Position numbers and translations under genes: made by a program
Origin: a virus
Virus record (IMG/VR): IMGVR_UViG_3300027365_000040
Location: 1-33,816 of that record
Reading direction: 5' to 3' (one strand)
DNA length: 33,816 bases
The notes under the pieces: model-generated
Told to the model about the DNA's origin: nothing
Database searches by the model: none
The model's input: the letters and a program-made list of their open reading frames with translations, nothing else
Part shown: one piece after another, positions 10,030 through 33,382 of the stretch
Position numbering within the stretch: position 1 is the first letter of the stretch
Layout of the letters: each line of letters starts with the position of its first letter

Positions 10030-10033
10030 TAAT

Positions 10034-13959: not shown

Positions 13960-15492
13960 TTGTCAAATAATCAAATATTCAAAGTTTATGATTTTTCTGG
14001 TGGATTAAATGAGAAAGGTCAGAATGTCCACCTTAAAGAAAACGAAACTCCATACTGCAAGAATGTAGTCTTTGATGAATTAGGGGCGTTAGCAAAAAGA
14101 AAAGGTTACTCCAGCCTTTTAGATACTGCAATTGGCATAGACCAACCTATAGATGGTTTATACATCTTCCATAAGAATGACGGTACAAGATATATGATAG
14201 CTGTTGCAGGTGGAGGAGCGTACAGAATAGACGAGGAAAACAGAACTGCAAGTCTATTACAGTATGGTGATGGAACAAGTGTTAATGACCTATCTGATAC
14301 AGATTATGTAGGGTTTACAACGTGGGGTAATACCTGTTATATAGCAAATGGTGTTGACCCTATAATGGAATTTGACGGTACCAGTGTTGTTAAATGGGAT
14401 AGTGCGATACCAAAAGGTAAATACATCACCTCTCACAAGAATATGATATTTTGGGCAGGAGATTCTACTTCACCTTCAGAGTTGTACTTTTCAGAAATAT
14501 CACCACCTGCTGGAAGTCCTGGAAGTTATAAAAGTATTAAATTCCAAACAGATGATGGAGATAAAATAATGAACATCATCAAGCAGCAGGATAATTTGGT
14601 AGTGTTTAAAACAGATAGCATACACGTTTTATACGGCTCTAGCGAGTATAATTTCAGCAAGAGAGAGGTTCAACCTACTATAGGTACGATAGCACCTAAA
14701 ACAGTTACAAACCTCCAGAACAGCATATTCTTCCTCTACAGAGATGGAGTATATATCTTTGACGGCAGTAATACTAAACTTATTTCAAATAAAATAGAAC
14801 CTACGATAATGAGTATATCAGAGCCTAATCAATGTGCAGGAGCAGTTAATAACCAGAAATATTTTTTAGCATATAGTGATGGAATAGTAGGTAGCACCAA
14901 CGATAAAGTAATGGTATTTTCAACTATTCACGGTAGTTGGACAAGGTTTGATAATTACCCTGTTAATATGTGGAATAACTTTGATGGTAGTCAAGATGGT
15001 GCTGTAAACTTAGAGGAATTGTATTTCGGCAGTGCTGAAGAAGGACAAATTTATAAAGTTGGTACAGGTTATGATGATGACGGTGAAGATATATCAGTTG
15101 AGTGGAGAAGTAAATTCTACGATATGGACGCAATAGAGATAGTTAAAACTTTTAGGCACATAATGGTAGATAATTTAACAGTAGGTAGTTTTAAGTTTAC
15201 TTATGATGTTGATAAAGGCACTATTACTAGAAGTTTTGACATAGTTGGATTGATAGATGATGAAAAGTATTTATGGGATAGTCAAGATTGGGCTGATGAT
15301 GATGGCACAATAGAAGATAACGAATTAGTTTGGTCTCCAGATGAAAGTGCTAAAATATTTGGTTCACCTTTACCTTCTGGAACATACGGAAGAAATATAA
15401 GATTTATCATAACTGACAGCAGTCAAGAAAATTTAAAACTTTTTGGAATAACGCTTAATTACAGACCTAGAAGAAAAAGAATTGTGAGGTAG
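13960..15492 (+). CDS. Tail nozzle protein (P22 gp10 / tail tubular B-like)
   Basis: This is a 510-residue protein with a TTG start 8 nt after GGAGGTG. The opening (VYDFSGGLNEKGQNVHLKEN, NVVFDELGALAKRKGY) is the hallmark of nozzle proteins, in which a beta-propeller forms the distal tail tube of short-tailed phages. Repeated propeller-blade motifs include YIFHKNDGTRYMIAVAGGG, WGNTCYIANGVDPIMEFDG, IFFLYRDGVYIFDGS and IHGSWTRFDNYP. A beta-rich C-terminal domain ends in a basic tail (RPRRKRIVR). Confidence 0.8.
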   Translation: MSNNQIFKVYDFSGGLNEKGQNVHLKENETPYCKNVVFDELGALAKRKGYSSLLDTAIGIDQPIDGLYIFHKNDGTRYMIAVAGGGAYRIDEENRTASLLQYGDGTSVNDLSDTDYVGFTTWGNTCYIANGVDPIMEFDGTSVVKWDSAIPKGKYITSHKNMIFWAGDSTSPSELYFSEISPPAGSPGSYKSIKFQTDDGDKIMNIIKQQDNLVVFKTDSIHVLYGSSEYNFSKREVQPTIGTIAPKTVTNLQNSIFFLYRDGVYIFDGSNTKLISNKIEPTIMSISEPNQCAGAVNNQKYFLAYSDGIVGSTNDKVMVFSTIHGSWTRFDNYPVNMWNNFDGSQDGAVNLEELYFGSAEEGQIYKVGTGYDDDGEDISVEWRSKFYDMDAIEIVKTFRHIMVDNLTVGSFKFTYDVDKGTITRSFDIVGLIDDEKYLWDSQDWADDDGTIEDNELVWSPDESAKIFGSPLPSGTYGRNIRFIITDSSQENLKLFGITLNYRPRRKRIVR

Positions 15493-15502
15493 GTGCAGAT
15501 AA

Positions 15503-16600
15503 ATGGGTAGAGTAGATAAAGCAAAAACCTTTGTTGGTGATACAGCAGCTAAGGCGTCAGAAGTTAACACTGTTTTTGATGATATATACAATGAGTTTAA
15601 TGGAAGTGTAGATGAATATAACATAAATTTTGATAGACCAGAATTAATTAATGCTTTATTAACTGCTTTAAAAACAGTAGATGGTGCAGGTAGTGGATTA
15701 GACGCAGATACTGTAGATGGTGATAATTTAAGTGATATACAAACTAAAATAGATACAGCAGAAGCTGATGCTAAAAGTTACACAGATACAGCAGAAGCTG
15801 ATGCTAAAAGTTACACAGATACAGCAGAAGCTGATGCTAAAAGTTATACAGATACACACGAAGGCAAAATAACAGGAGTACACGGGGTAGGAACAAGTAA
15901 TGTAGAAAGCGTAGCTGGCTCACAATCTAAAGTTAATACACACGAAGGCAAAATAACAGGAGTACACGGGGTAGGAACAAGTAATGTAGAAAGCGTAGCT
16001 GGCTCACAATCTAAAGTTAATACACACGAAGGCAAATCAAACCCTCATTCAGATAGCGCTAGTGATACTGAATTTACATCACATAAAAACAATACAGGTA
16101 ATCCTCATTCAGTAGCTGCTAGTCAATTAGGTGCTACTAATATACTAAATGAAGTTAAAACAGTAGATGGTGCAGGTAGTGGGTTAGACGCAGATACTGT
16201 AGATGGAAAAGAATACTTAGATATATTAAAAACAGTTTATCCTGTTGGTTCTATTTATATAAACGCTACAGATGCCACAAACCCAGGTACATTGTTAGGA
16301 TTTGGTACTTGGGAAAGATTTGGTGAAGGTAGAGTATTAGTCAGCCAAGATAGCACAGATGCGGATTTTGATGCAATTGGCGAAACTGGTGGAGAAAAGG
16401 CGCATCAATTAACAGAATCAGAAATGCCATCTCATAGCCACGATTTGCAATGGGTAGGGAGTGGTGGTGGTGCACTTACTGGAAATGGAGACAGTTATGG
16501 AGGACCAAACGGCTCAAGAACTGGAACAACTGGTGGCGGGAATCCCCACAATAACTTGCAACCATACATCACAGTTTACATGTGGGTTAGAACAGCATAG
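15503..16600 (+). CDS. Tail collar fibre protein with internal repeats
   Basis: This is a 365-residue protein. The N-terminus (MGRVDKAKTFVGDTAAKAS) is followed by GLDADTVDG motifs typical of phage fibres, a triple 11-residue repeat (AEADAKSYTDT), and a perfect 28-residue repeat twice (THEGKITGVHG...). The C-terminal 130 residues match the gp10-like collar tip domain: YPVGSIYINATDATNPGTL, GFGTWERFGEGRVLVSQD, and the HxH metal-binding segment LTESEMPSHSHD. It ends in NNLQPYITVYMWVRTA, the usual end of tail collar domains. It is expected to bind the host receptor. Confidence 0.85.
   Translation: MGRVDKAKTFVGDTAAKASEVNTVFDDIYNEFNGSVDEYNINFDRPELINALLTALKTVDGAGSGLDADTVDGDNLSDIQTKIDTAEADAKSYTDTAEADAKSYTDTAEADAKSYTDTHEGKITGVHGVGTSNVESVAGSQSKVNTHEGKITGVHGVGTSNVESVAGSQSKVNTHEGKSNPHSDSASDTEFTSHKNNTGNPHSVAASQLGATNILNEVKTVDGAGSGLDADTVDGKEYLDILKTVYPVGSIYINATDATNPGTLLGFGTWERFGEGRVLVSQDSTDADFDAIGETGGEKAHQLTESEMPSHSHDLQWVGSGGGALTGNGDSYGGPNGSRTGTTGGGNPHNNLQPYITVYMWVRTA
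15752..15850 (+). repeat. Three tandem 33-bp repeats
   Basis: Three head-to-tail copies of a 33-bp unit beginning GATACAGCAGAAGCTGATG (starts at 15752, 15785 and 15818) encode an 11-residue helical repeat in the collar fibre. The copies are almost identical, so the array is young or is kept uniform by recombination. Confidence 0.9.
15853..16035 (+). repeat. Two tandem 84-bp repeats plus partial third
   Basis: An 84-bp unit beginning TACACACGAAGGCAAA is repeated perfectly at 15853-15936 and 15937-16020. The first bases of a third copy continue from 16021. It encodes a 28-residue repeat (THEGKITGVHGVGTSN...). In-frame unit length keeps the fibre gene open whatever the copy number. Confidence 0.92.
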
Positions 16601-16994: not shown

Positions 16995-18311
16995 ATGTTA
17001 GGCTCAATATTAGGGAGTGTAGGTAGTTCTCTTATAGGTGGTTTATTTGGTGGTAATGACAGTAGCAATGGTGGAAGCAATGTTCCAGAATTAAATCAGT
17101 TTGATATGAACAATTTACCCAATTTAGAAGGGTTTGATAATCAAAACTTACAAGATTTACAGCAGTTTAATAATGAAAACCTGCCTAACTTAGATGAATT
17201 TAATAACGAAAATTTACCAGAATTTCAACTGGTAAATACAGAAAATGTACCTAATCTAGAAGGGTTTGATAATTCATCTTATAACTTTCAAAATTATTCT
17301 AGTGGTGATTTACCAGAATTAGAAGGTTATGAAGGTAATACTAACGTAGAAACTGGCAATATATTCGACCAAATGCAGAGTAATGTAATGGAACAACTGC
17401 AAGGCAATAACTTAGGTATGTCTGATGAAGAAATGGATACTTATATGAACCAAATTAATTCTAATCTTTCTGAACAGAGAGATGAAGGTGTTAGCCAGCA
17501 GTTAGCACAGATGAATGAAAGAGGGGTATTATCTTCCTCAATGACTGGAGAAGCATTGTCAGATGTCAACGAAAACTTTTCTGACGCTTTAACCAATGCA
17601 CAAGCTAATATGTTTTTAGAAAACGAAGGTATGAAAAGAAACCAGTATAATACTGCTATGGGTCAAGGTATGAATTTATCTCAATATGATACTAACCTTC
17701 AACAAAGGAATTTAGATAATAATTTAAGGGTTAATCAATTTAATAATAATGTAGAACAGCAGGGTTATAGCAATAGATTTAACCAACAGCAAGCTAACAA
17801 TAGTTTAGAGCAACAAAGATTATCTAATGATATGAACACCTGGCAAGCCAATAATAATGTTGCTAGAAGTAATTTCAGCGACCAACTTACAGCATTAGGA
17901 TTTAACAATGATTTATCACAACGTAGTTTCGGCAACGAAATGAATACTTGGCAGGCAAATAATGATGTTGCTCAACAAAACTTTGGTAACCAGTTTAAAA
18001 CTTGGCAAGCTAATAACAACGTTGAACAGCAGAATTTTGGCAATCAATTTCAGACCTGGCAGGCTAATAACAATGTAGCTCAACAGCAGTTCGGGAATAG
18101 AATGAATGCTATGCAGTTTAATAATAATGCTTTAGCTAATCAATATAATATGCAGTCTGGAGAAAGAGCTTATGGTGACCAAAGAAGACGAGAAAGATTC
18201 GGCAGTATCGGTGCAGGTTTCCAGATGGGTTCAGATTTAGGAGAAGGTACTTCACTCGGCTCTGGTTGGGGCGGAGCAATAGGTGGACTACTCGGTGGAA
18301 TATTCGGATAG
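16995..18311 (+). CDS. N/Q-rich repeat protein, putative internal virion (ejection) protein
   Basis: This is a 438-residue protein. Both ends are Gly-rich and hydrophobic with GxxxG-type spacing (GSILGSVGSSLIGGLFGG and WGGAIGGLLGGIFG), suited to membrane insertion. Residues 30-95 hold six 11-residue repeats (consensus LPNLEGFDNEN). A helical region follows (about 120-230, including SEQRDEGVSQQLAQMNERGV). Residues 240-383 hold eight 18-residue repeats (consensus FGNQFNTWQANNNVAQQN). An 18-residue period equals five alpha-helical turns, so these may build one long helix with an Asn/Gln face. The order fibre, this gene, coiled-coil gene, giant polyvalent gene is that of podovirus ejection proteins, which form a trans-envelope channel. 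No sequence family is recognised. Confidence 0.6.
   Translation: MLGSILGSVGSSLIGGLFGGNDSSNGGSNVPELNQFDMNNLPNLEGFDNQNLQDLQQFNNENLPNLDEFNNENLPEFQLVNTENVPNLEGFDNSSYNFQNYSSGDLPELEGYEGNTNVETGNIFDQMQSNVMEQLQGNNLGMSDEEMDTYMNQINSNLSEQRDEGVSQQLAQMNERGVLSSSMTGEALSDVNENFSDALTNAQANMFLENEGMKRNQYNTAMGQGMNLSQYDTNLQQRNLDNNLRVNQFNNNVEQQGYSNRFNQQQANNSLEQQRLSNDMNTWQANNNVARSNFSDQLTALGFNNDLSQRSFGNEMNTWQANNDVAQQNFGNQFKTWQANNNVEQQNFGNQFQTWQANNNVAQQQFGNRMNAMQFNNNALANQYNMQSGERAYGDQRRRERFGSIGAGFQMGSDLGEGTSLGSGWGGAIGGLLGGIFG
17082..17279 (+). repeat. Six 33-nt coding repeats (11 residues each)
   Basis: The region codes for six imperfect 11-residue units in register (VPELNQFDMNN, LPNLEGFDNQN, LQDLQQFNNEN, LPNLDEFNNEN, LPEFQLVNTEN, VPNLEGFDNSS). 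The copies are diverged at DNA level, so selection acts on the protein pattern. Confidence 0.75.
17712..18143 (+). repeat. Eight 54-nt coding repeats (18 residues each)
   Basis: Eight consecutive 18-residue units run in strict register. The conserved Trp codons lie at 17841, 17949, 18003 and 18057, that is, at multiples of 54 nt. Units 5-7 are closest to the consensus (FGNQFKTWQANNNVEQQN). The outer units are degenerate. Confidence 0.8.
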
Positions 18312-18324
18312 GGAGGTGTAATAA

Positions 18325-19869
18325 ATGTCCTTACAATCAATGTGGCAGGGAATGACAGATGTAGCAGGTAGCAGAGAAGGTGCTATGATGGGTCTTAAAA
18401 AAGCCTTCGGACAGTATAATTATGCAGAAGACCCAGAGTACCAGCGTGATATGCAGTTTTTACAGCAGAATCCAACCCAACAGGTAGCAGGAGCTTTTGT
18501 AGAAAAGTGGGGCGACCAACTTGATGGTGTTACAATGGAGAATATAGCAAAGCAACTGCAACCAGTAGAAGGAACTAATCAATGGTATCAAAACCAAATG
18601 AATGATATTCAGTTATCTAACGCTGAATTAGGTTTAGATTATAACCAGTATGCTCAACCATACAAGAAAGAAAACTTACAGTATCAGACACAGCAAAATA
18701 TGTATAATACTGATATTGCTCAAAACAAAGCTAAAGTTTCTAACCAAGTTACACCTTCATCTATCGAAGCACAAATTGCTCAAAATAGATATAACACTGA
18801 ACAGGCACAAGCACAAATGCCTTATGTAGAAGATTTAGCAAGATTAGGGTTTGAACAAGACCAAGCAAGACTTGATAGTATGTTGGGTCAGAATGAAATG
18901 TTACAGCACGAACTGGATATTATGAATCAAACCAAAGATTACAGAATAGATAACGCCAGACTTCAAAATTTATCTAATCAGTTAGGTGTTGACGCACAAA
19001 CTATAGAAAATTATATTTTAGACCAGACTAAGCAAGATAGAATAGACCAGTCTGCTGCTCAACTTGAAAGAATATTATTGGGTAATGAAAACCAAAGAAC
19101 TAATAATATGATTAATAAAGAAACAGCACAAGCACAAATTAACGCTCCATATATTGCTAACAGTGGAGCTATCCTGGCTAATAACTACCAGACAACACAG
19201 AACAGAATCTTAAATGAAAATGCAGACAATATGATAACTCAATCTGACCTGGAAACCGAACTGTTGAGATTGCAACAACAGCAGGCGAAAGATGAATACA
19301 ACTTTATGAAAGGTTTAGATGATAACTTAAGGTTTGGTGTAAACACAGGTAACGGTGGCCCAGCTATAGATATTAAAGAAGTCTTACCAACTCCAGAAGG
19401 TGTACCGCAACTTGCTTTAAATTCTGCAGATACAGTGGTTTATTTAGATAATGGACTACCTTATGTAGATGAAAGTGGCAAATCATATGTAGCAACAACC
19501 GGCATTATGGGAAGCAATAGAGTATTTAAAGCCGTAGACCCTAATAATTATTTATCTGGAGGTTCTGATGTAAGTGACTTTAGAAAAACTGGCGATGGTG
19601 ATGATGAACAAAATTCAATTATAAGTTGGATACAAGGACAAATAAATAATGTAAAAAATAACATTACAGGTGGTGGAAATAATCAAACTCAACAACAATC
19701 TGGTTCAGCACAGGAATTATACCAACAATTTAAACAAAACACACCAACTGATGAACCACTAACACCAAGCCAGATAAAAGAAAGAATCTCATTAATTGAT
19801 GATGAAAGATTCAAGCAAATGTACGGTATTCCAAAATCACAGTTTGAAGACTTCTTAAACAGATTTTAG
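18325..19869 (+). CDS. Coiled-coil internal virion protein candidate
   Basis: This is a 514-residue protein starting after GGAGGTG. It is mostly helical and Gln/Asn-rich, with many short Q-rich helices such as QNRYNTEQAQAQMPYVEDLA and LETELLRLQQQQAKDEYNF. There is a globular beta segment at about 345-410 (DTVVYLDNGLPYVDESGKS). The C-terminal section (about 480-514) has a short helical domain (TPSQIKERISLIDDERFKQM). Its place between two other presumed ejection proteins suggests the same compartment inside the head. No family is recognised by eye. Confidence 0.55.
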   Translation: MSLQSMWQGMTDVAGSREGAMMGLKKAFGQYNYAEDPEYQRDMQFLQQNPTQQVAGAFVEKWGDQLDGVTMENIAKQLQPVEGTNQWYQNQMNDIQLSNAELGLDYNQYAQPYKKENLQYQTQQNMYNTDIAQNKAKVSNQVTPSSIEAQIAQNRYNTEQAQAQMPYVEDLARLGFEQDQARLDSMLGQNEMLQHELDIMNQTKDYRIDNARLQNLSNQLGVDAQTIENYILDQTKQDRIDQSAAQLERILLGNENQRTNNMINKETAQAQINAPYIANSGAILANNYQTTQNRILNENADNMITQSDLETELLRLQQQQAKDEYNFMKGLDDNLRFGVNTGNGGPAIDIKEVLPTPEGVPQLALNSADTVVYLDNGLPYVDESGKSYVATTGIMGSNRVFKAVDPNNYLSGGSDVSDFRKTGDGDDEQNSIISWIQGQINNVKNNITGGGNNQTQQQSGSAQELYQQFKQNTPTDEPLTPSQIKERISLIDDERFKQMYGIPKSQFEDFLNRF

Positions 19870-19881
19870 AGAGGTGCTATA

Positions 19882-22800
19882 ATGAATAACATCTATAATT
19901 TAAACGAACTTACAGAAGAAGAAAAAAATAAATATAATCTTGATGAAATAACAAACACCACTGAAGATAAAAAAGAAGCACCTAACTATAGCAGTCTTAT
20001 GCCTGGAAATACCGATTATGTAAATGATGATAAAAACAATTTCAACCCTGGAGAAGCCTTAAATAAAGTCGGTAGCTTTTTTACTGGCTTATTTTCTCCA
20101 GATGAAAACAAATCATCTATTAAAAGCCAATATGACAGTTATCAAGAAACTAAAGATATAGATACTATTTCTGGAGCAGCACCAGATTATGTTCCAGTTA
20201 GTAATGAGCCAGCATTAAAAGCAGAAGATATACAGAACGTTAATCAAAAAGTAGGTAAAGTAGCAGGTAATGTCTTAAAAACTGTGGCTGGTTCTGGTGC
20301 TTCTTTAGGGTCTGGTGTGGCAAACTCTTTAGATATGCTTGTAGATTTATCTTTTCAAGAAGATAAACAAACTGTTTTTGAAGACTACGGAGAAAGTAGT
20401 CAACAATTTGCAAAGGAACAATTTGAAGCAGGAGCCTGGGAAGATAATCTTAATGTAATGGAGAGTGTAAAACAAGGTAACATAGGTGAAGCAATATCTA
20501 AGTCAGTCCAAGGAGCATTGCAGAACTCTGCTCAACTATTAACCATCACTGGTATGGGTATTTTAGGTGGTGGAGCGGCAGCTGGAGCAGGTGCAGGACA
20601 GGCTTTATCTGCAACAAGTGGTTATTTATCTGGTTTAGGTGCAGCAGCCACTTCGCAGGCACCACTTGCTTTAATAACAGCTTCAGCAGCAGGTAGTAAA
20701 TACGCAGGGCTTGAAGATAGAGAAGATTTATCTATTAATCAGAAAGTGAGTTCTGGGCTTTTATCTGGTGGTTTAGAAGCAGCAACAGAAACGTGGGGTT
20801 CTTTAAGATACTTAAATGAAATTTCTAACAGTGTGCCAGGTGTAGATAAAACTATCAGAAGTGAAGTTATGAGATATGCCAGAGCATTAATTGACCCTAA
20901 AAAATTAGCTGCTAATGGTATTACTGAAGCTAAAGAGGAATATATAACAGAATTTGGTGACGCTTTATTTGACAGTATGTTAGGTATCAGTGATAAAACA
21001 CTGCCAGAAGTATTAGCAGACCAAGAGCCTTACTTAAACAGTGCTGCTATTGGATTCACCAGTGGTTTAGGTATGTCTGGTGCTGCTCAATTATCTAATA
21101 TTAATCAAGTGTCACAAATGAATGAAGATATAAATAACAGGCAACAAAAAGCAGACCAGTTTATGAATTATGTTGAACAATCAAATTTCAATTTACAAGA
21201 AGATACCAAGCAGGCTTTATGGGAAGAAGCAGTAAATATAAATAGACCAAGCGATATGTATAGAATGTTCCAAAACGCTGAAGAATCTATAAAAAATAAC
21301 GATACCATCACTTTTGAAGAAGGCTCTAAAATATTAGATGAAATGATGGTAGATAGAGGAGATTTAAGCACACTCGAAACAACTTTAAATGAGGAAGAAA
21401 CTACAGAACAACCAACTGAAGAAGTAGAAGAACAAACAGAAGAAACAACTAATGTATCAAACCCTCTTGAAGTGTCAGATGAAGATGTAAGTTTAGAAGA
21501 ACCTGCTGAAAGTAATCAGTATTCAGATTTAAACACTGAAGAATTGTTAAGAGTTAGAGAAGGTTTGTTAAGAGAGTTTGAGGTCACACAAAACCCAGAC
21601 GCTTATCAAGAAGCAAGAACTATTGAAAGAATTTTAGATGAACAAGGTGTAGAATATGGAGAGCAAGAAACTACAGTTGAAGAACCAACTACCGAAGAAA
21701 ATGCCGCAGAGCAAACAGAACCACAGCAAATAGAACAGGAAGACACTCAAGAGGTAGAAGAACCTACCGAAGTTGAAGAGGTTATAGAAACTCAACCTCA
21801 GCAGTCTGATGTGGAATTAACTGAAGAAGAATTAATGGAGCCACAAGGACAGAACGCAGTCCAGGATAACGTGCAAGAATTATCAGTTGAAGAAATAGAA
21901 GACAAAATAGATGATTTGTTCTTTGAGTTGGAAGAAGCTGATACTGAAACTGAACAGATTGAAATTAGAGAACAGATTGATAATTTGGAGCGTGAATTAA
22001 ACACTAAAGTAGATGAACAACAAACCACTGAAGAACAAAGTGTTGACACAGAACCCAATACTGCTATTCACTATGGAGATTTAGGTAAATCAGAAAGTCT
22101 TTTATCTATGGAATCAAGTAGAGGAACAGGTCATTTTGGTACAGGAACTTACTTTTTAGGCTCCGAAAAATCTGCTGGTGCTGTAGGTTATGCAGAAGAT
22201 AGACCATCTTATAAAGTTGATTTTAATGAATATAATTTGTATGAACCAGAAACAGCACAAGAAGGTATGGAACTTCACGACTTTTTAAGAGATTTAAACA
22301 GATATGCTTTTCAAGGAGAATTTGCGACTGATGAAATGTCTTTATCAGAAAGCAGATACAAACCATATCAAGATGAATTATTTGAAGCGAAAGATAAATT
22401 GTTTCCAGATATGTCAGATGAAGAATTTATGAGAGAGTTAAATGATTTACGAGGTTATGTTCAAGCACACGAAGGTTTATCAACTGACGAACAATCACAG
22501 TTAGATTCTCCTTCTACAAGATTTATGAAGACTTTAGGTTATGAAGGAATAGATGTTAGAAACTTTGATAGATTAGATACCACTGAATTTGGTAGTGTTA
22601 TATATGATTTAAAAGATGAAAGTGTTATTGAATCACCAGAAACTGCAACTGAGCAGGAAACTACCGAGGAAGAATTATCAGAAGAAGAAATGGTTGAAAC
22701 TAAACCATATGAAGATAGAGATATAATAAAAAGTATGGAACAAGCAAAAGAAGAAAATGTATCAGTTATACCAGAGAGAAAACATTTATGCCAACAATGT

Positions 22801-25800
22801 GCTTATGACAATCTTATGCAAAATGATGTAGGAACATTAGCTCTCGGAACTGTTGAAGGTATAGGTTTTGACGGAAACGTAAAAAGGGTTAGACACGCCT
22901 GGGTAGAATATGAAGACAGTATTTATGACCCTCAATTTGATAGGTATTTCAGCAAAGAACTTTATGGAGAGCAATTAAAACCTAGAGGAGAAAGGGCTTT
23001 TTCTAAACAAGAAGCCAAAGACGAAATAACAATAAACAGAATTACGCCAGAAGAAGTTAAAGCTGAAATAGAAAATCAAACATTAGATACCACTGAAACT
23101 GAAACAGCAGATACACTCAATCTTAACTCTGCTACAATAGACGACCTTACTGAGATTAAAGGAATTGGAGCGTCAACAGCACAGAATATAATTAAATATA
23201 GGGATAGCAAAGAAAATGGTATTGAAAGTGTTGACGAATTGAAGGAAGTTAAAGGTATAGGTTCTGCTACATTTGATAAGATAGCGCCTTCATTTACTGC
23301 TGAACAGGTTGACACAACAAACAGCACAGAAACCATTGAAGAACCAACTGATAGTGATATAGAAACAGATGAAGATGTAGAGAAAGAAGCGAAAAACTTA
23401 GATGTAGATGATGTTATCAAAGACGTAGAGAAAGAAGAAGGTACAACCAGACAAACCAACGAACTCTTATCTGAAGAAGCAAGAGATTTAATGGAGTTTG
23501 AAGACACTGATATAAGAGAATATTTAGATGTCGTGCTTAGAACAAGTTTGAACGACCTGCAAAACGTAACACAGGCTGAAAGAGATAATATTATAGATGA
23601 AATAGAAATGGACGACCCTGACATAGCTGAAGCTATACGGTCAGAGTTAGAAGAAAGAGCCTATGAAACTGATGATTATTATTATAAAAAAACAGACAAT
23701 GCTAAAAATAAAGATGATATAAAAAATGAAGCAGACGCAAATGACACTGACGGAAATTTTGAAGGTGTTAACAAAGCAACCAGACGTGATATAGAAAACA
23801 CTATCAGAGTTGATTTAGGTTTGCCTTTAAGATATGGTAAATTGCAATCAAGAGATTCGGAAGCACAATACGATAGAATTTATAAGGTTGTCAGAACTAG
23901 AGATTATTCTAATATGGAAGTAACTGCTCACGAAGTAGGACATCATTTATCTGATATGTTAGATTTAGATGTTGAAGCCTTCCCAGAATTGGTACAGTTA
24001 TTAGAAGATGAAGGTCTTAAAGATGCTTATGATAAAAGTGTGTGGCACGAAGAAGGTAACTCTGAATTTTTCAAGTATTACTTTAATTATCCAGGACAGG
24101 CTAAAATTAAAGTTCCAGCATATTATGATTATGTAGAGAGCGTTTTACAGGGCAGTGACTTGTATGAACCTGTTAAGCAGTTGCAAAACCAAATGAACAC
24201 CTGGAACAAACAATCTTATGCTGATAGAGTATCTGGTGCTATGTCAAGACAGGATTTAGATATTGCACCACTTATGACTATGAAGGATAAGTTAAATGAA
24301 GCCTTAGTAGATGAAGATGTAGTTTTTAAAAGAGCATTAGAACAGGCTGGTTATGATGTTGAAACTCTTGAAACATATAAGAACCCCTGGAAATTAAAAA
24401 GATTATATTCAAGTGTAAATGATATGGTAGATGTATTCCTTTCCAAAAAATCATTAGACCCACAAGGAAGACCAAATGGTAAGTCACTGCTTGAAATATT
24501 ATCACCTGTGCAGGATTATATAGGTGAAACAGAAGGTAGAGAGTTTGGCGACTTTGAAGTTTACTCACTTGCATTACACGCATTAGAAAGAGAAGCTAAG
24601 TTCCTTGCTAGAGATTTAGAAGCAAGAGGTAATGATAAAGGTAAACTAGCAGCTAAAAGATTAAACGCTGTAATAGATAACGCTAATATCGAAGCATTAA
24701 TCCAGTCGCTAAAAATGGCAGACAATAATCCAGATAACTTGCGCTCATTAGGATTGGAACTACCAGAAGGCGAATACCGTTTTAGAGCAACTGGAATAAA
24801 TATAAATGATATAGCAAATACAGTTAACGAATATGACAGCAAATTATTTAGAGATACACTTAAAGATTTACAGGAATATCAGAATAATCTTGTTGATTAT
24901 GCACAGTATTATGATATGTTAAGCGAAGACGCTGCTGAAGATATTAAAACAGCCTATAATTTTCATATGCCGCTTCATAGATACTTTGGGGAAGAACTTA
25001 TAAATGAAGGACAAGACACTTCAAGATACACTGATTTACCAGATGTTGTTAAATCTGCTTATGGTAGCACAAGAATAATCAAAGACCCTATTAGAACACT
25101 GGTAAGAGATACTTCATATGTGGTTAGACAGGCAAATAAAAATAATATAGTTGTTAAGTTTATGGAAGCACTTGACGCTAAAAGAGATAGTGGTATAGGC
25201 AATTTAGTAGGTAGAGAGATAACTACACCAGAACCAATAGATAAAGAAAACGTAGTATCATACAGAGTTGATGGAGAAATTAAAGCAAGAGTTGTCCACC
25301 CAGATATTTATAGAACTTTGCAGGGTTTAAATAAAGAATCAGAACACGTTTTAAGGACAATGTTGAAACCACTTGAATACTCTAACAATTTATTTAAGAA
25401 GTTTGCTGTTATCAACCCTAAGTTCTGGCTAAACAACTTGGGTCGTGATGAAGTTAGACAGATGATTTATGAAGATTCTAATGGTATAGAAAAATTAAAG
25501 TTGTTTTCTACTATGGTTGACGGTATGTCAGAAGCATTTGGTCTTGAAAAAGCAGACACTGAAGCTATATTTAGAGGATTAGGTGGAGCAAGAGGTGGTT
25601 TTGCACAATACCTTAAAGATATGGATAATCCACAGACACTTGAAGAATTATTAAGAGCAGATAAAGCATCTAAAAACCCTTTAGACTGGCTCGGTGATGT
25701 TGCTCAATGGACAGAGGATACAAGACGTAAAGGTTTGTTTATAAATAAAGTAGGTAGAGATACTGATGTAATGTCAATGGAAGCTGAAGAAGCAGAAAGA

Positions 25801-26937
25801 GTTTTAAAAGAAGCTGCTTATTTTGGTAAAGGAGAAGTGTTGGAAGATTACTCTATCAAAGGTAGATACACAAAAGAATTAGATAGATATGCTGCTCCAT
25901 TCTCTGCTGCTGGTATGACAGGTGGAAGGCACTTATATAACAAATTAAAACAACCTTCAACCTGGGTAAACGGTATAATAAATGTAACAATACCTTCATT
26001 AGCATTTTGGGGGATGAACAGAGATAAGCCAGAGTATCAAGAATTACCAGCGTGGAAGAAAATGCTTTACTTTAATTATGTTAAAGATAACGGAGAAATA
26101 ATATCTTTCCCAAAACCATTTATTACAGGTTATTTCTTTGGTGCTATACCAGAAATGTTAGCACAGGTTGCTTATAATAAAAACGGTAATGAATTAACTG
26201 ATAATCTTAAAACTCTTATCCAGGCTGGTGCTCCAAACTATCAAATGGCTGGAGGTATTGCTGCTGGATATGAAGTATTAACCAACAGAGCAGACCCTTT
26301 AGGTGACGATTATCAGATAGTACCAGATTCAGAAAAATACTTAGACAATGAAGACCAGTACGGAGAATACAACTCTGAAATATCTAAGATGTTAGGTTCA
26401 GCAATAAATGTATCACCACGTATAATAGACCACCTTTTAGAAGGTCAATTTACAGGTACCTACTCTATGGCAACTAATATTACTGATTATGTATTAGGTG
26501 CTAAAGACTTCAAAGAAGCAGTTTTAGGAATAGTTGGAGTTTATTCTGACCCTTTTATTACATCAACAACTGTCAATAAACTCTATAAAGATAGAGAGAA
26601 ATACAACAACTTAATGTCAAGGTTAAGAGAAAAAGATATGCTAAAACAAGAAAAAGGTTTAAATATTAATGAAATAAGAGAGGTTGCAACAAAATATTCT
26701 AAGTTAAATAATATAACTGACACAATGTCTAAATACAGAAAAGTATCTGACATTATAGACACTCTTGATATAGACCCAGAGTTAAAAGAAAATGCTAATA
26801 AATATATTGATATTCAAAATATTAACTTTGCCAGAGAATATTATGATAGAACCAAAATATATCTTGATGATTATATGTCACAAGAAGAATACCAAAGAGT
26901 GCAGGAATTAATTGATTGGATTCAAAGAAATTATTAA
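19882..26937 (+). CDS. Giant polyvalent virion protein (ART, papain-like, HhH, zinc peptidase, LPD38-like)
   Basis: This 2351-residue protein has the multidomain layout of phage polyvalent proteins, which are packed in the virion and injected with DNA. Gly/Ala-rich hydrophobic segments lie at about 130-330 (for example 214-275). An acidic Glu/Thr linker covers about 500-728. An ADP-ribosyltransferase-like domain spans about 728-915, with HYG (H730), GTGHFGTGTYFL (Y757) and TTEFGSVIYDL (E902). A papain-like domain spans about 950-1060: LCQQC (970/973), RHAWVEYED (H1005), IYDPQFD (D1016). A ComEA-like helix-hairpin-helix lies at 1079-1138. A zinc peptidase has HEVGHH at 1350-1355 with probable third ligand E1395 (NSEFFKYYF). 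Helical regions lead to an LPD38-like C-terminus starting INPKFWLNNLGRDEV (1844-1858). Substrates are unknown. The N-terminus may help membrane passage. Domain calls were made by motif, without search. Confidence 0.8.
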   Translation: MNNIYNLNELTEEEKNKYNLDEITNTTEDKKEAPNYSSLMPGNTDYVNDDKNNFNPGEALNKVGSFFTGLFSPDENKSSIKSQYDSYQETKDIDTISGAAPDYVPVSNEPALKAEDIQNVNQKVGKVAGNVLKTVAGSGASLGSGVANSLDMLVDLSFQEDKQTVFEDYGESSQQFAKEQFEAGAWEDNLNVMESVKQGNIGEAISKSVQGALQNSAQLLTITGMGILGGGAAAGAGAGQALSATSGYLSGLGAAATSQAPLALITASAAGSKYAGLEDREDLSINQKVSSGLLSGGLEAATETWGSLRYLNEISNSVPGVDKTIRSEVMRYARALIDPKKLAANGITEAKEEYITEFGDALFDSMLGISDKTLPEVLADQEPYLNSAAIGFTSGLGMSGAAQLSNINQVSQMNEDINNRQQKADQFMNYVEQSNFNLQEDTKQALWEEAVNINRPSDMYRMFQNAEESIKNNDTITFEEGSKILDEMMVDRGDLSTLETTLNEEETTEQPTEEVEEQTEETTNVSNPLEVSDEDVSLEEPAESNQYSDLNTEELLRVREGLLREFEVTQNPDAYQEARTIERILDEQGVEYGEQETTVEEPTTEENAAEQTEPQQIEQEDTQEVEEPTEVEEVIETQPQQSDVELTEEELMEPQGQNAVQDNVQELSVEEIEDKIDDLFFELEEADTETEQIEIREQIDNLERELNTKVDEQQTTEEQSVDTEPNTAIHYGDLGKSESLLSMESSRGTGHFGTGTYFLGSEKSAGAVGYAEDRPSYKVDFNEYNLYEPETAQEGMELHDFLRDLNRYAFQGEFATDEMSLSESRYKPYQDELFEAKDKLFPDMSDEEFMRELNDLRGYVQAHEGLSTDEQSQLDSPSTRFMKTLGYEGIDVRNFDRLDTTEFGSVIYDLKDESVIESPETATEQETTEEELSEEEMVETKPYEDRDIIKSMEQAKEENVSVIPERKHLCQQCAYDNLMQNDVGTLALGTVEGIGFDGNVKRVRHAWVEYEDSIYDPQFDRYFSKELYGEQLKPRGERAFSKQEAKDEITINRITPEEVKAEIENQTLDTTETETADTLNLNSATIDDLTEIKGIGASTAQNIIKYRDSKENGIESVDELKEVKGIGSATFDKIAPSFTAEQVDTTNSTETIEEPTDSDIETDEDVEKEAKNLDVDDVIKDVEKEEGTTRQTNELLSEEARDLMEFEDTDIREYLDVVLRTSLNDLQNVTQAERDNIIDEIEMDDPDIAEAIRSELEERAYETDDYYYKKTDNAKNKDDIKNEADANDTDGNFEGVNKATRRDIENTIRVDLGLPLRYGKLQSRDSEAQYDRIYKVVRTRDYSNMEVTAHEVGHHLSDMLDLDVEAFPELVQLLEDEGLKDAYDKSVWHEEGNSEFFKYYFNYPGQAKIKVPAYYDYVESVLQGSDLYEPVKQLQNQMNTWNKQSYADRVSGAMSRQDLDIAPLMTMKDKLNEALVDEDVVFKRALEQAGYDVETLETYKNPWKLKRLYSSVNDMVDVFLSKKSLDPQGRPNGKSLLEILSPVQDYIGETEGREFGDFEVYSLALHALEREAKFLARDLEARGNDKGKLAAKRLNAVIDNANIEALIQSLKMADNNPDNLRSLGLELPEGEYRFRATGININDIANTVNEYDSKLFRDTLKDLQEYQNNLVDYAQYYDMLSEDAAEDIKTAYNFHMPLHRYFGEELINEGQDTSRYTDLPDVVKSAYGSTRIIKDPIRTLVRDTSYVVRQANKNNIVVKFMEALDAKRDSGIGNLVGREITTPEPIDKENVVSYRVDGEIKARVVHPDIYRTLQGLNKESEHVLRTMLKPLEYSNNLFKKFAVINPKFWLNNLGRDEVRQMIYEDSNGIEKLKLFSTMVDGMSEAFGLEKADTEAIFRGLGGARGGFAQYLKDMDNPQTLEELLRADKASKNPLDWLGDVAQWTEDTRRKGLFINKVGRDTDVMSMEAEEAERVLKEAAYFGKGEVLEDYSIKGRYTKELDRYAAPFSAAGMTGGRHLYNKLKQPSTWVNGIINVTIPSLAFWGMNRDKPEYQELPAWKKMLYFNYVKDNGEIISFPKPFITGYFFGAIPEMLAQVAYNKNGNELTDNLKTLIQAGAPNYQMAGGIAAGYEVLTNRADPLGDDYQIVPDSEKYLDNEDQYGEYNSEISKMLGSAINVSPRIIDHLLEGQFTGTYSMATNITDYVLGAKDFKEAVLGIVGVYSDPFITSTTVNKLYKDREKYNNLMSRLREKDMLKQEKGLNINEIREVATKYSKLNNITDTMSKYRKVSDIIDTLDIDPELKENANKYIDIQNINFAREYYDRTKIYLDDYMSQEEYQRVQELIDWIQRNY

Positions 26938-27401: not shown

Positions 27402-27914
27402 ATGGATAACTCAATCTTAGAGAAGACTTTACAATTTGAAGGTGGTTATGTTGACGACCCAGACGATAGAGGTGGTGCAACAAATTATGGTATCACTGAA
27501 GATGTAGCAAGAAGCCACGGCTATGAAGGTGATATGAAAGATTTACCTAAATCAAAAGCTGTTGAAATATACAAAGAAAGTTATGTTGACCCACTCTTAG
27601 ATGATATTGATTCAGAGGTTATACAACTATTAGTATTTGACGCTTCAGTTAATCACGGAACTAAGTGGGGTGTTAAATTCCTACAGAGAGCCTACAACAC
27701 ACTCAATTTTGATACAATAGCAGAGGATGGTATATTAGGCAGTCAAACTGTTGGAGCCGTCAATAAGTACACTGACACTCAATCTCTGGCTTTCTGGTAC
27801 TTAATCGTTAGAGGTCAATACTTTAGAGATATAGTTAAAAACTCTCAAAGTCAGAAAAGGTTTATTAGAGGTTGGGGTAATAGAATAAAACATTTGATGA
27901 AGGAAGTGTTATAA
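27402..27914 (+). CDS. Endolysin, GH108-type N-acetylmuramidase
   Basis: This is a 170-residue peptidoglycan hydrolase. The N-terminal motif FEGGYVDDPDDRGGATNYGIT contains the catalytic glutamate (E13) typical of glycoside hydrolase family 108. VFDASVNHGTKWGVKFLQRA and DGILGSQTVGAVNKY belong to the C-terminal peptidoglycan-binding part of the same family. There is no signal peptide, so it needs a holin to reach the wall. The family is found mostly in phages of bacteria with an outer membrane. The stop overlaps the holin start (TAATG). Confidence 0.9.
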   Translation: MDNSILEKTLQFEGGYVDDPDDRGGATNYGITEDVARSHGYEGDMKDLPKSKAVEIYKESYVDPLLDDIDSEVIQLLVFDASVNHGTKWGVKFLQRAYNTLNFDTIAEDGILGSQTVGAVNKYTDTQSLAFWYLIVRGQYFRDIVKNSQSQKRFIRGWGNRIKHLMKEVL

Positions 27915-28998: not shown

Positions 28999-29274
28999 TT
29001 AAAAATCATCTAATGTCATTACTTCTGTCTTTCCAAATGGATACCAAGTTTTATTGTGATAACTTTTAGCTTTAAGTAATTCCCCAGATTTTATTAAGTA
29101 TATATACTTAATAAAACTTTTATATTTATCTTTAGCTGGAGAAATCATATTAATTAAATATCCATTCAAATTAAACTGCTCACTTTCTGGCTCAACTTTG
29201 CTGGGTAATTCTCCGTTTTCAGCAAAATATTCTAATAATCTTTTTACTTTAGGAGATACAATTAAATCATACAT
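28999..29274 (-). CDS. Hypothetical protein, last gene of the leftward operon
   Basis: This is a 91-residue protein. An N-terminal helix (SPKVKRLLEYFAENGELPS) is followed by strands and YKSFIKYIYLIKSGELLKAKS. It overlaps the upstream gene by 8 nt and ends next to the shared terminator. No family is recognised. A small globular phage protein is the most that can be said. Confidence 0.55.
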   Translation of the reverse strand: MYDLIVSPKVKRLLEYFAENGELPSKVEPESEQFNLNGYLINMISPAKDKYKSFIKYIYLIKSGELLKAKSYHNKTWYPFGKTEVMTLDDF

Positions 29275-29557
29275 TATCTACCTCCTTTTCAGCTTTATCA
29301 ATAGCATATTCTAAAATTTCTATAATAGGGCTCGGCTCATTACTCGGTCGGGGAATTGATTTCAATAAAGACAAGGCTTGTTTTGAAGCAACCAACAAAT
29401 CTGGTGCAGCAGTTATCAATTGAGAATTAATATTCATTGAATCCATTTCACCTCCTGTGAATTGCTCTGCATACATTCCAAAACTACAAACAACCATTTC
29501 GTCTTTATCTATTATGTCATTGCCATCATTTACCCACGGTGCATTATATTTATTCAT
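29267..29557 (-). CDS. Conserved phage protein with NxxLIxAAPDLL motif
   Basis: This is a 96-residue protein with AAAGGAG upstream. The middle has NINSQLITAAPDLLVASKQA, a motif found in many small phage proteins (NAxLIAAAPxLLxA) with no assigned function. The N-terminus (APWVNDGNDIIDKDEMVVCS) is also typical of that group. It overlaps both neighbours by 8 nt. Confidence 0.65.
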   Translation of the reverse strand: MNKYNAPWVNDGNDIIDKDEMVVCSFGMYAEQFTGGEMDSMNINSQLITAAPDLLVASKQALSLLKSIPRPSNEPSPIIEILEYAIDKAEKEVDNV

Positions 29558-29897
29558 TTTTATTCTCCTTTGCTAATTTCTGTTCCCTCAACTTGTCTAT
29601 GTCTATATTTCTCTCATTTCTGTGTACTGTTACAACTAAGAACCCTTCCCCTACAAGTAGCACTGCTGCATATAATCCTAACCCTAAGCGTAAAGGCACG
29701 TGAAATGCACCAGTGCTGTCCACTACAAGTCCTTTTCGTATATCCTCTGCTATAGCTTTGGACACAAGTTTGCGTATTCTTCTTATTGTCCAGTCTTTTT
29801 TACCTAGTTCGGTATCTGTTGTATATTCCCAAAACCTCTTGCAGGCGTGAACTGTTAGCTTAGTTATCCTTATATATTTGGTGTACCTAAGAAACAT
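29550..29897 (-). CDS. Hypothetical protein with a hydrophobic segment
   Basis: This is a 115-residue protein. ATG at 29897 is 5 nt after AAGGAGG, and a GTG one codon earlier is also possible. The N-terminal half is basic and helical (YIRITKLTVHACKRFWEY, RRIRKLVSKAIAEDI). The second half has a hydrophobic stretch (LGLYAAVLLVGEGFLVVTV), either a membrane helix or a buried core, then a charged helix. No family is recognised. Confidence 0.5.
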   Translation of the reverse strand: MFLRYTKYIRITKLTVHACKRFWEYTTDTELGKKDWTIRRIRKLVSKAIAEDIRKGLVVDSTGAFHVPLRLGLGLYAAVLLVGEGFLVVTVHRNERNIDIDKLREQKLAKENKNE

Positions 29898-29911
29898 CAC
29901 AACCTCCTTAG

Positions 29912-30313
29912 CTAAAAAGGAATTTCTCCATCAAAGTCATCTTCCAATCCTGGTGGTGTGTATTCTTCTTCATCATTATTTTTAGACTTCTTCTTAATCT
30001 TATTGTTGCCACTAGTTTTGAGATACTCAACCTCTCTTGCTTTACACTGGAGGTTGTAATAAGTCTTACCTTTGTATTCGTTCTTCTTCTGATAACCTAT
30101 TCCAGTAGCAGCCACCTTATCTCCTTTACCAAGATGTTTAGCGTGTGCTTCAGCTTTATCTCCATATGTTACTATCTGTGGATAAGTTGTTTGTTTATAC
30201 TTACCATAACCACTTTCTGCTGCTATCGGAAATACGCATACTGCTGTACCTTTCTCGCTGTAAAACAACTTCGGGTCTTCAGTCAGATTACCTATTAGAT
30301 TCCATTGATTCAT
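29912..30313 (-). CDS. ssb: Single-stranded DNA-binding protein
   Basis: This is a 133-residue protein that coats single-stranded DNA during replication and recombination. The OB-fold start (MNQWNLIGNLTEDPKLFYSE) and core (YPQIVTYGDKAEAHAKHLGK, KVAATGIGYQKKNEYKGKTY) are typical. A disordered linker ends in an acidic tip (DDFDGEIPF), the motif used to recruit replication partners. It overlaps the dCTP deaminase gene by 26 nt. Confidence 0.92.
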   Translation of the reverse strand: MNQWNLIGNLTEDPKLFYSEKGTAVCVFPIAAESGYGKYKQTTYPQIVTYGDKAEAHAKHLGKGDKVAATGIGYQKKNEYKGKTYYNLQCKAREVEYLKTSGNNKIKKKSKNNDEEEYTPPGLEDDFDGEIPF

Positions 30314-30923
30314 TGTTAGCCAACTCCTTTAGTTTGTTTATTATCTCTTTTCTACGCTCTATATTTGCCCTTCTTCTGCGTTTAACCTTCTCGTAATATT
30401 TTGCACCTTCAACGTGTTCAGCCCCCTGGTATCTACCATTATATTCTTTCAGTGGGATATTGGAGTTCTCCATCAATACTAATTGTGCTATCGGCTCACC
30501 TACTTTTAATTCCAGTATAGATGAACCAACATTTTTTAACTCAAGTGTTATTTTGCCAAAATACCCTGGGTCAATCCACCCTGCTGTCTGGTGAACAGTC
30601 AATCCTTTTCTAGCCCAGGTAGATTTACCTGCAACTATCGCTGATAAATTAGCAGGTACTGATATAAATTCTTCAGTGTGTGCTAAACAAAACTCCCCAA
30701 GTTCTAAGTCAATTGTGTCTTCTTTACCTGTTAGTTCAATAACCTCATACTGTGGTACATCATCATAAGAAATTTTTTCTCCTTCATCTTCATAACTTAT
30801 CCAGAGAAATCTCCTACCTAAAGTTAAGTCATAACTTGAAGGTTGTACTAAGTCTGGGTCAAAGGGTATGATTATCTCTTTCTCTATCTGCTCACTGATT
30901 ATATCTCTATCAACTAATACCAT
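30288..30923 (-). CDS. dcd: dCTP deaminase (possibly bifunctional with dUTPase)
   Basis: This is a 211-residue nucleotide enzyme that deaminates dCTP towards dUTP for dTTP synthesis. Motifs are QPSSYDLTLG (27-36), GKSTWARKGL (99-108), HQTAGWIDPGYFGKITLE (111-128, catalytic E128) and GRYQG (163-167). The TAGWID form resembles bifunctional dCTP deaminase-dUTPases as well as monofunctional ones. The C-terminus carries a basic extension (KRRRRANIERRKEIINKLKE) beyond the usual fold, of unknown role. It shares its first base with the end of the RusA gene. Confidence 0.9.
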   Translation of the reverse strand: MVLVDRDIISEQIEKEIIIPFDPDLVQPSSYDLTLGRRFLWISYEDEGEKISYDDVPQYEVIELTGKEDTIDLELGEFCLAHTEEFISVPANLSAIVAGKSTWARKGLTVHQTAGWIDPGYFGKITLELKNVGSSILELKVGEPIAQLVLMENSNIPLKEYNGRYQGAEHVEGAKYYEKVKRRRRANIERRKEIINKLKELANNESMESNR

Positions 30924-31279
30924 TACTCAACCTCCCTAATTTCTATTTCAACTCTCGGATTTTCTTTATCAACTTTGAAAGTGTTGCTCCAGCCTTTATT
31001 CTGCTTCCAACCATCTCCTTCTAATACTCCAGCTTCCATTAATCCGTCATAAATAAACTTCACAGCAGCAGCTATATTATCTGGGTCACGTCTTCTGTTC
31101 TTACAATACCACGTTATATCCAACTCGACAGCTTCGTATGTTGGCAACTGTTTAGCCTGCCAAGCAACTAAGTTGGTGTTCTCCTCTTTCAACTTCCTGT
31201 AAACGTGATAGTGAGATTTAGCAGCGTCAATAATTTTATTTAATCCTGGAAATTCTCCTTCGATAACTAACTTTTCCAA
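30923..31279 (-). CDS. rusA: RusA-type Holliday junction resolvase
   Basis: This is a 118-residue endonuclease that cuts four-way DNA junctions in replication or packaging intermediates. The core NRRRDPDNIAAAVKFIYDGL (61-80) supplies two metal-binding Asp (D65, D67). VLEGDGWKQ provides a further Asp (D89), matching the active site of RusA proteins. The N-terminus (EGEFPGLNKIIDAAKSHYHV) is the phage variant of the family. Length is normal. Confidence 0.9.
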   Translation of the reverse strand: MEKLVIEGEFPGLNKIIDAAKSHYHVYRKLKEENTNLVAWQAKQLPTYEAVELDITWYCKNRRRDPDNIAAAVKFIYDGLMEAGVLEGDGWKQNKGWSNTFKVDKENPRVEIEIREVE

Positions 31280-31282
31280 ATG

Positions 31283-31477
31283 TTATTCACCTCCTTTTAA
31301 CGGACAAATATGTGGCTTCCAGTCGATTGGTTTCTCTCTTAGATAACTTTCCAATCCTTCAGCAACTAACGTAGGTTGTATAAAGTCTAAGTGTTCACAA
31401 AAAACTCTAAGCAATTTATCACCACCAGTATTATCTTTCTCAATTATAGAGTGTTCACAATGCCCATAACATTTCAT
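31283..31477 (-). CDS. Small Cys/His-rich protein
   Basis: This is a 64-residue protein. CYGHCEH, VFCEHLDF and HICPLKGG provide four cysteines and several histidines, likely for a zinc site. The start ATG directly follows the stop of the upstream small gene (TAAATG), with GGAGTG as ribosome-binding site. No family is recognised. Confidence 0.6.
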   Translation of the reverse strand: MKCYGHCEHSIIEKDNTGGDKLLRVFCEHLDFIQPTLVAEGLESYLREKPIDWKPHICPLKGGE

Positions 31478-31594
31478 TTAATCACTCCTTTCCTCCTGTC
31501 TTTTAACCTCCTCTTTAGCTTCCTCAATAAACTTCAGCAGCATGTCCTCGTTAAGTGCAGGGAACTCGTCTTTAAGTTTATCTATCAGTTCCAT
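31478..31594 (-). CDS. Very small helical protein
   Basis: This 38-residue frame starts at an ATG 4 nt after AAGGAGG and ends immediately before the next start. It is one charged amphipathic helix or two (MELIDKLKDEFPALNEDM, LLKFIEEAKEEVKRQEERSD). Good ribosome-binding site and tight spacing support translation. Function is unknown. Confidence 0.5.
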   Translation of the reverse strand: MELIDKLKDEFPALNEDMLLKFIEEAKEEVKRQEERSD

Positions 31595-31680
31595 AGAACC
31601 TCCTTAGAAGTGTCTTCAACAGTTATCACAAACCAAATAACACCACCTATCCCCAACAAATATCTTGCTATCACAGACAT
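31585..31680 (-). CDS. Possible tiny membrane peptide
   Basis: This 31-residue frame has an ATG that overlaps the stop of the upstream HTH gene (TGATG), so it may be translated by coupling. It contains one hydrophobic helix (ARYLLGIGGVIWFVITV) and a short acidic tail. It overlaps the next small gene by 10 nt. No Shine-Dalgarno of its own is visible. Confidence 0.35.
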   Translation of the reverse strand: MSVIARYLLGIGGVIWFVITVEDTSKEVLWN

Positions 31681-31919
31681 CAATGTGCAATCACTTCCCT
31701 AAAAGCATACTTTAATTTCTCCCACCAACTCATTCTCATATAACTATCAAACTCTGTTTCACCTTCCTTCCATTCCATATATCTCTTGCGTACAGTAGAG
31801 GAACTGCAACTAAACTGATTACCTATATCCCTCCAGGTAAATCCATCATTCCTTTTCTCCTCAACCTCTCTCAACTCCTTTTCAGTCAGCATTATCTTTC
31901 TACCTTTTTTAATCATCAT
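31680..31919 (-). CDS. Helix-turn-helix DNA-binding protein
   Basis: This is a 79-residue protein. ATG at 31919 is 5 nt after GGAGG (the adjacent ATG at 31916 is also possible, and an in-frame TTG at 31931 is within that site). LTEKELREVEEKRNDGFTWR then DIGNQFSCSSSTVRKRYMEW forms a helix-turn-helix like those of sigma region 4 or small transcriptional regulators. The rest is a short aromatic helix (SWWEKLKYAFREVIAH). It may regulate the leftward operon or act at the left-end promoters. Confidence 0.65.
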   Translation of the reverse strand: MMIKKGRKIMLTEKELREVEEKRNDGFTWRDIGNQFSCSSSTVRKRYMEWKEGETEFDSYMRMSWWEKLKYAFREVIAH

Positions 31920-32049
31920 TATTCCCTCCAACTTCTTTTTTTATTCTTTCTACTATTTCCTCTGCTGTCATATCACTGGTATCAATTCTAAGTTTAACTT
32001 TTTTGCCGTTCTTTTCATATAAAAATTCCATATATTCTTTATTACTCAT
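31909..32049 (-). CDS. Hypothetical small protein
   Basis: This is a 46-residue protein with GAGGAGG upstream of ATG 32049. It reads EKNGKKVKLRIDTSDMTAEE followed by a helix and an acidic end (GGNNDD). It overlaps both neighbours (8-11 nt). No family is recognised. The strong ribosome-binding site and overlaps support translation. Confidence 0.5.
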   Translation of the reverse strand: MSNKEYMEFLYEKNGKKVKLRIDTSDMTAEEIVERIKKEVGGNNDD

Positions 32050-32437
32050 TATTATCCTCCTCTAACAATTCTGGATTGTCGAACTTATTACCTATAACTT
32101 TTATATTTACATATCTTGAGAGCATTAAATATCTATTCTCACCTATAAATTCTGAATTAGCAAAACCAACTACATCTACACCATTAAACATTTCTGGATT
32201 ATCTGTTGTTTTATATTTATAACCTTCACCTAATACATATTCATACTCAAATATATCTCCTTCATATATTTCTTTGCCATTTTTATCTTTTAAACCGGTT
32301 GACTGCATTAATTCTGCCTTTGCTAAACTTTGAATTTCACCAAACTCATTCCACCATATCAAACCTTGTATATCTTTACCATGATATAACATTTCTTTGC
32401 TTATATCATTCCAAGCTCTAAATTTAATCTCCCTCAT
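32042..32437 (-). CDS. YopX-family protein
   Basis: This is a 131-residue protein. ATG at 32437 after AGGAGGAT is preferred over an upstream in-frame start at 32467. The opening MREIKFRAWNDISKEMLYHG and the central QSTGLKDKNGKEIYEGDIFE are the two signatures of the YopX family, common in phages of Firmicutes, with unknown function. The C-terminal strands (NIKVIGNKFDNPELLEE) agree with the family end. Confidence 0.9.
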   Translation of the reverse strand: MREIKFRAWNDISKEMLYHGKDIQGLIWWNEFGEIQSLAKAELMQSTGLKDKNGKEIYEGDIFEYEYVLGEGYKYKTTDNPEMFNGVDVVGFANSEFIGENRYLMLSRYVNIKVIGNKFDNPELLEEDNNE

Positions 32438-32570
32438 TATCCTCCTCCTGTTCCTTAACCTTATCATTCAGCGACTTAGATTCCTTCTTCTCCATTTGGT
32501 GCAGTTCCCAAAACCCTTCAAGTCCTAACCTTTTAGCTTCTTCTTTACTTAAATTAGACCACCTTGTCAT
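32424..32570 (-). CDS. Hypothetical small charged protein
   Basis: This is a 48-residue protein, ATG at 32570 with GGAGGT 5 nt upstream. It is helical: SNLSKEEAKRLGLEGFWELH followed by Lys/Glu-rich QEEDNEGD end. It overlaps the YopX-like gene by 14 nt, so the ribosome-binding site of that gene is inside this one. No family is recognised. Confidence 0.5.
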   Translation of the reverse strand: MTRWSNLSKEEAKRLGLEGFWELHQMEKKESKSLNDKVKEQEEDNEGD

Positions 32571-32573
32571 TGG

Positions 32574-32738: not shown

Positions 32739-32739
32739 A

Positions 32740-33241: not shown

Positions 33242-33254
33242 CCCTACCCCTCCA

Positions 33255-33380: not shown

Positions 33381-33382
33381 AA

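Follow-up and report, generated by a model that had tools for sequence, protein, structure and literature searches.

A zincin-LPD38 polyvalent protein of 2351 residues as presumed last ejection protein of an SU10-like short-tailed phage

Polyvalent proteins of phages typically adjoin virion genes, and the zincins found in such proteins, described in 12 clades, have been proposed to free parts of the protein before or after delivery or to act on host proteins (Iyer et al., 2017; PMC5512222). For the zincin of the N4 virion RNA polymerase (vRNAP), a relationship to ATLF/lethal-factor-type domains was reported in the same study on the basis of HHpred. Polyvalent proteins can end in an LPD38 domain, as in Burkholderia phage JC1, where gp69 carries LT, methylase, helicase-like, LPD3, and C-terminal LPD38 domains in one protein (PMC9144972). 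In phage SU10, virions contain gp20-24 but have lost them once the genome has been released (PMC9509320). Here we compare with these systems a very long gene from an IMG/VR virus contig.

Gene order and neighboring genes

Within the window, i.e., the whole stretch of 33,816 nucleotides analyzed, positions 19882..26937 of the plus strand hold an uninterrupted ORF of 2351 codons with an ATG start and a ribosome-binding site (GAGAGGTG, at about 19869-19876) located 5 bases 5' of the ATG at 19882. As the first-pass annotation had proposed, this LPD38-type polyvalent and presumed ejection protein is a single chain of 2351 residues, the ORF being open throughout. Neither full-length nor domain queries detected close relatives of the gene in IMG/VR, and no match to it occurs in the records of close relatives reached via the capsid protein, all of which are fragments. 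Used as a query against PHROGs, the whole protein of 2351 residues has no match, and its C-terminal 878 residues match phrog_9854 (8e-28).

The phage is short-tailed and SU10-like, its portal, major capsid protein, and adaptor being of the SU10 type, and the gene is the last one of its plus-strand structural module; gp20-24 are the last genes of the corresponding module in SU10. Directly upstream lie genes for two presumed internal virion or ejection proteins, i.e., an N/Q-rich protein of 438 residues with Gly-rich hydrophobic ends (16995..18311, plus strand), assigned by position and composition, and a protein of 514 residues (18325..19869, plus strand), assigned by position; the former has no solid family match and the latter none. 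The syntenic anchor of the module is a 510-residue tail protein of the nozzle/stabilization type (13960..15492, plus strand), which matches the virion structural family phrog_3287 (9e-30). Searches of IMG/VR with the upstream ejection-type and nozzle-type genes returned no close relatives. In the IMG/VR relatives L040, L034, L027, and L025, a homolog of the nozzle-type protein precedes the LPD38 gene by three to five genes. Similarly, the LPD38 genes of HTVC034P and Lederberg follow those for tail tubular proteins A and B and internal virion proteins, which is the place of gp16 in T7.

In this SU10-like short-tailed phage, the gene probably codes for the last and large ejection protein, with a zincin-LPD38 polyvalent protein occupying the gp16-like slot, and it is the position and family of this protein that point to packaging and ejection. 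Several disparate domains (LPD38, zincin, and helix-hairpin-helix) in one chain with late virion neighbors are what Iyer et al. describe for polyvalent proteins. Domain matches, gene order, the literature, and the approximately 120 records with related proteins support the earlier proposal of a polyvalent virion protein beside two presumed ejection proteins. A very improbable alternative is an ordinary late protein that acts in the infected cell and is not part of the virion, e.g., an anti-restriction or lysis-associated factor. The gene does immediately precede lysis genes, a GH108 endolysin with a peptidoglycan-binding domain being encoded soon after it (27402-27914), but its position and family fit ejection proteins, and polyvalent proteins of phages usually lie beside virion genes (PMC5512222).

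Other regions of the contig show features of their own. Two segments of 183 bases (10505-10687 and 13310-13492), which are 79% identical, lie in LamG-like genes (10034-10705 and 12749-13957), and in the close relative L002 (94% identical DNA over 7.3 kb) positions 9673-10929 are without matching DNA, so that this LamG-like stretch looks like a swapped module. The tail-fiber gene (15503-16600) contains a direct repeat of 50 bases with 98% identity (15671-15720 and 16157-16206), and its product displays repeated KITGVHGVGTSNVESVAGSQSKVN segments. On the minus strand, replication and nucleotide genes (28999-33814) code for SSB, a dCTP deaminase with a C-terminal extension, RusA-like and YopX proteins, and the C-terminus of a DnaB-type helicase that is cut by the end of the contig; a perfect palindrome of 28 bases (29089-29116) is located in an ORF of this strand, close to where the plus-strand block of genes gives way to the minus-strand one.

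The C-terminal zincin-LPD38 unit

The C-terminal half of the protein forms a two-part unit, in which a HExGH zincin is followed about 100 residues further on by a helical core of about 850 residues ending in LPD38. Alignments and Foldseek comparison with BFVD support the conserved core (aa 1470-2351, 24289..26934, plus strand), and the LPD38-like end noticed previously is LPD38 proper (Pfam PF18857; aa 2050-2205, 26029..26496, plus strand; E = 8e-19, 68.8 bits at a curated cut-off of 27 bits). About 700 residues of it are conserved in alignments with proteins of T7-like Pelagibacter phages, Bacillus phage Pascal, a Vibrio phage, and an uncultured podovirus; identity to LPD38 proteins of phages within the core is only about 20-25%. 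An AlphaFold model of aa 1299-2351, built from an alignment of 30 sequences, has a mean pLDDT of 70.7 with blocks of 81-96 starting at the HEVGH helix; Foldseek matches it to predicted LPD38 proteins of phages in BFVD (best E = 6e-30) and to nothing significant in the PDB, where no solved structure matches the core.

The zincin (aa 1305-1470, 23794..24291, plus strand) contains the sequence HEVGH at aa 1350-1354 (23929-23943) and, as candidates for the third ligand, E1391 and E1395. Since the motif sits in a domain common to nine aligned relatives, it is not a chance occurrence; all ten sequences (window protein included) retain the H, E, G, and H of HExGH as well as two glutamates further downstream, which bears out the HEVGH peptidase as a zincin domain. 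HEVGH and both glutamates lie in helices of the AlphaFold model, in keeping with the arrangement known from zincins of polyvalent proteins, in which HExxH is followed by a second helix that contributes a glutamate ligand. When compared with the PDB, the zincin profile gives weak matches to ATLF/lethal-factor-type domains (E of 0.11 and 0.64). Pfam MPTase-PolyVal (PF18818) does not match the window protein at E ≤ 10, which agrees with the existence of 12 zincin clades in the classification of Iyer et al.

Scans of IMG/VR detected 80 loci with the core as query, 13 of them with HExGH, and 48 loci with the zincin as query; as eight records are common to both scans by contig name, about 120 distinct records carry the zincin-core unit or the core. 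At 45 of the 48 loci found with the zincin, the core resides in the same chain as HExGH, usually beginning about 100 residues past it, and the remaining three are truncated at their 3' end. The core therefore accompanies the zincin, whereas 67 of the 80 core loci lack HExGH, so that processing cannot be a general requirement of the core. LPD38 is present in all 26 proteins scanned with Pfam, and the cargo varies among relatives, including zeta toxin and phage lysozyme in the Pfam scan and a methylase-like region; RelA/SpoT and LT are among the names of the fold matches in BFVD. Seven loci (L135, L137, L140, L142, L152, L155, and L157) encode chains of >3300 residues that carry the zincin-LPD38 unit and are open at their 5' end, and L157, the one inspected, resembles DarB-type polyvalent proteins in that its N-terminal region is DNA-methylase-like.

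A core that is universal in its family while the cargo varies might also be expected of a purely structural ejection protein, in which the zincin would serve only head or core assembly, the helix-hairpin-helix would bind packaged DNA, and the middle regions, which are matched by no profile, would be filler with coincidental motifs. We regard this as possible rather than probable because lysozyme, zeta toxin, RelA/SpoT, LT, and methylase domains recur in LPD38 relatives (PMC9144972) and enzymes are therefore to be expected among the cargo.

N-terminal regions and candidate cargo

Judged by sequence, the only N-terminal domain that is proven is a helix-hairpin-helix (HHH) of the ComEA type (aa 1077-1139, 23110..23298, plus strand), predicted to bind DNA. 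It matches Pfam HHH_3 (4e-17, 62.4 bits at a cut-off of 27), NCBIfam comE (5e-17), and, in the PDB, 8dfk and ComE operon proteins; according to the NCBIfam and PDB matches, ComEA is its nearest relative. The HHH that had been read from the sequence is thus well founded, and in a single-sequence AlphaFold prediction it forms the stretch of highest pLDDT (about 65-87). None of the sampled LPD38 relatives was found to possess an HHH.

Two regions upstream of the HHH are characterized by residue motifs. The ADP-ribosyltransferase (ART)-like region (aa 728-915, 22063..22626, plus strand) displays a suggestive arrangement of H730, Y757, and E902, and the Cys-His-Asp region (aa 966-1050, 22777..23031, plus strand; C970 or C973, H1005, and D1016) reads like a transglutaminase/papain-like motif. 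Neither full pattern occurs in 20,000 shuffles, but both patterns were devised post hoc from the sequence itself; a short post hoc regular expression for the ART is weak, since outside the window protein its matches were a true ART (F116) and a DNA methylase. The Pfam profile ART-PolyVal (PF18760) does not match the window protein, although in the same scan it recognized four polyvalent ARTs already described, with E values from 1e-10 to 1e-39; applied to the window and 31 records of relatives, it found no ART. Comparison of the ART-like region with N4-like ARTs by hhalign was negative, the Pfam PARP model does not match it, and a custom ART HMM ranks it at about position 775 of 2001 among its own shuffles. 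A weak tblastn match to a plasmid (E of 0.2) was judged to be due to chance. Searches of GTDB, PDB, Pfam, and NCBIfam with the Cys-His-Asp region were all negative, including the transglutaminase-like models PF01841 and PF13471. Across both regions, AlphaFold without an alignment yields pLDDT values of 24-68 and does not resolve a fold. Hence, the residues on which the first-pass annotation had based an ART-like and a Cys-His-Asp domain are present, but neither domain is borne out by profile, database, or fold, and ADP-ribosylation or cysteine-enzyme activity of these regions would be speculative. The proposed delivery of a protein-modifying activity, which depends on an ART recognized by no profile, is unproven.

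At its N-terminal end, the chain has a Gly/Ala-rich region (aa 120-420, 20239..21141, plus strand), which might interact with membranes as judged from composition and hydropathy. Its richness in Gly and Ala (25% together) is as described previously, but its hydrophobic character is less pronounced than supposed, as the 19-residue hydropathy peak of just 1.33 lies below the usual threshold for a membrane helix. Gly/Ala-rich regions of similar appearance exist in relatives and in SU10 gp24; the relatedness is not significant, and a homologous domain was rejected since the comparison was no better than with shuffles. The linker between aa 480 and 720 (21319..22041, plus strand) is strongly acidic with 27% Glu, 11% Thr, and a net charge of -71, so the Glu/Thr-rich linkers are real at least for this segment.

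If zincin and motif-only domains were host-directed effectors, the zincin would cut host proteins and the others would modify host factors. There is precedent in T4 Alt, an injected enzyme that ADP-ribosylates proteins of the host, and ARTs are common in polyvalent proteins (PMC5512222); also, the H-Y-E and C-H-D residues exist and the zincin profile weakly resembles ATLF/lethal-factor-type peptidases. However, the Pfam ART-PolyVal, custom ART, transglutaminase, and PARP models all miss, and the zincin is coupled to a structural core across many phages, which fits processing or a structural role better than an individual host target, so that we give this possibility only tentative credit. Similarly, of the protein-cutting activity supposed to be delivered with the DNA, the zincin itself is present, but it is widely shared with related phages, and the literature proposes such domains mainly for self-processing and alternatively for cleavage of host proteins. 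The most far-reaching version, a self-cleaving chain that delivers a DNA-binding module of the ComEA kind plus two enzymes, a divergent ART and a transglutaminase-like cysteine enzyme, each founding a new family of injected effectors, appears doubtful.

Returning to the last ejection protein of an SU10-like phage, which we prefer, the polyvalent protein would be expressed late and enter the head along with the proteins encoded by the two upstream genes, and there the conserved helical LPD38 core probably anchors it. The chain would then pass out through the tail, either ahead of the DNA or together with it, and the acidic flexible linkers between domains would suit a one-by-one passage of small domains. 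The core may assist DNA entry, the ComEA-type HHH may hold or guide the incoming double-stranded DNA, and the zincin might cleave the chain, in the head or once delivered, and thereby free cargo. Host-directed effectors might then be the role of the two motif-only domains.

Comparison with described phage proteins

With LPD38 polyvalent proteins of phages (PF18857; PMC5512222), the window protein shares the C-terminal core, the upstream zincin, the late structural position, and the variable N-terminal cargo. Zincin and core are conserved in the domain order of relatives, whereas the HHH and the two unrecognized middle domains were found only in the window protein among the LPD38 relatives sampled. 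Its exact domain order, suggested to be possibly new, is indeed absent from all of these relatives, although variable N-terminal cargo is normal in the LPD38 family. Among T7-like Pelagibacter phages, HTVC034P gp44 (1229 aa) and Lederberg gp8 (1254 aa) possess the same core in the same slot after internal virion genes, but are about half as long, lack HExGH, and have no reported HHH.

The N4-like virion RNA polymerase (e.g., RPP1 CBX87992) is likewise a giant multidomain protein that is packaged and contains HExxH motifs, to which RPP1 adds an ART (PMC5512222); it differs by its RNA polymerase and by an ART that matches Pfam, whereas the ART-like region of the window protein does not. SU10 gp24 (PMC9509320) is also large, last in its module, and Gly/Ala-rich in its N-terminal region; it was rejected as a homolog, and because it lacks LPD38 and any detectable similarity, the equivalence is positional only. 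T7 gp16 (PMC8954989) offers a functional likeness as a large last ejection protein after two internal proteins; it was not matched by PDB sequence profiles or Foldseek, and the Pfam scan revealed no transglycosylase domain in the window protein.

These comparisons place a phage whose head and tail are SU10-like in the LPD38 group and present the zincin-LPD38 core as a portable carrier, occupying a gp16-like slot in short-tailed phages as different as SU10-like, T7-like, and Pagevirus members. If the HHH and the two unrecognized domains were active, the repertoire that phages inject would grow by a DNA-holding module and two effector families. The protein thus belongs to an already known kind, the polyvalent ejected class (Iyer et al., 2017), and what is unusual is its cargo, a ComEA-type HHH and two unrecognized domains absent from the relatives sampled.
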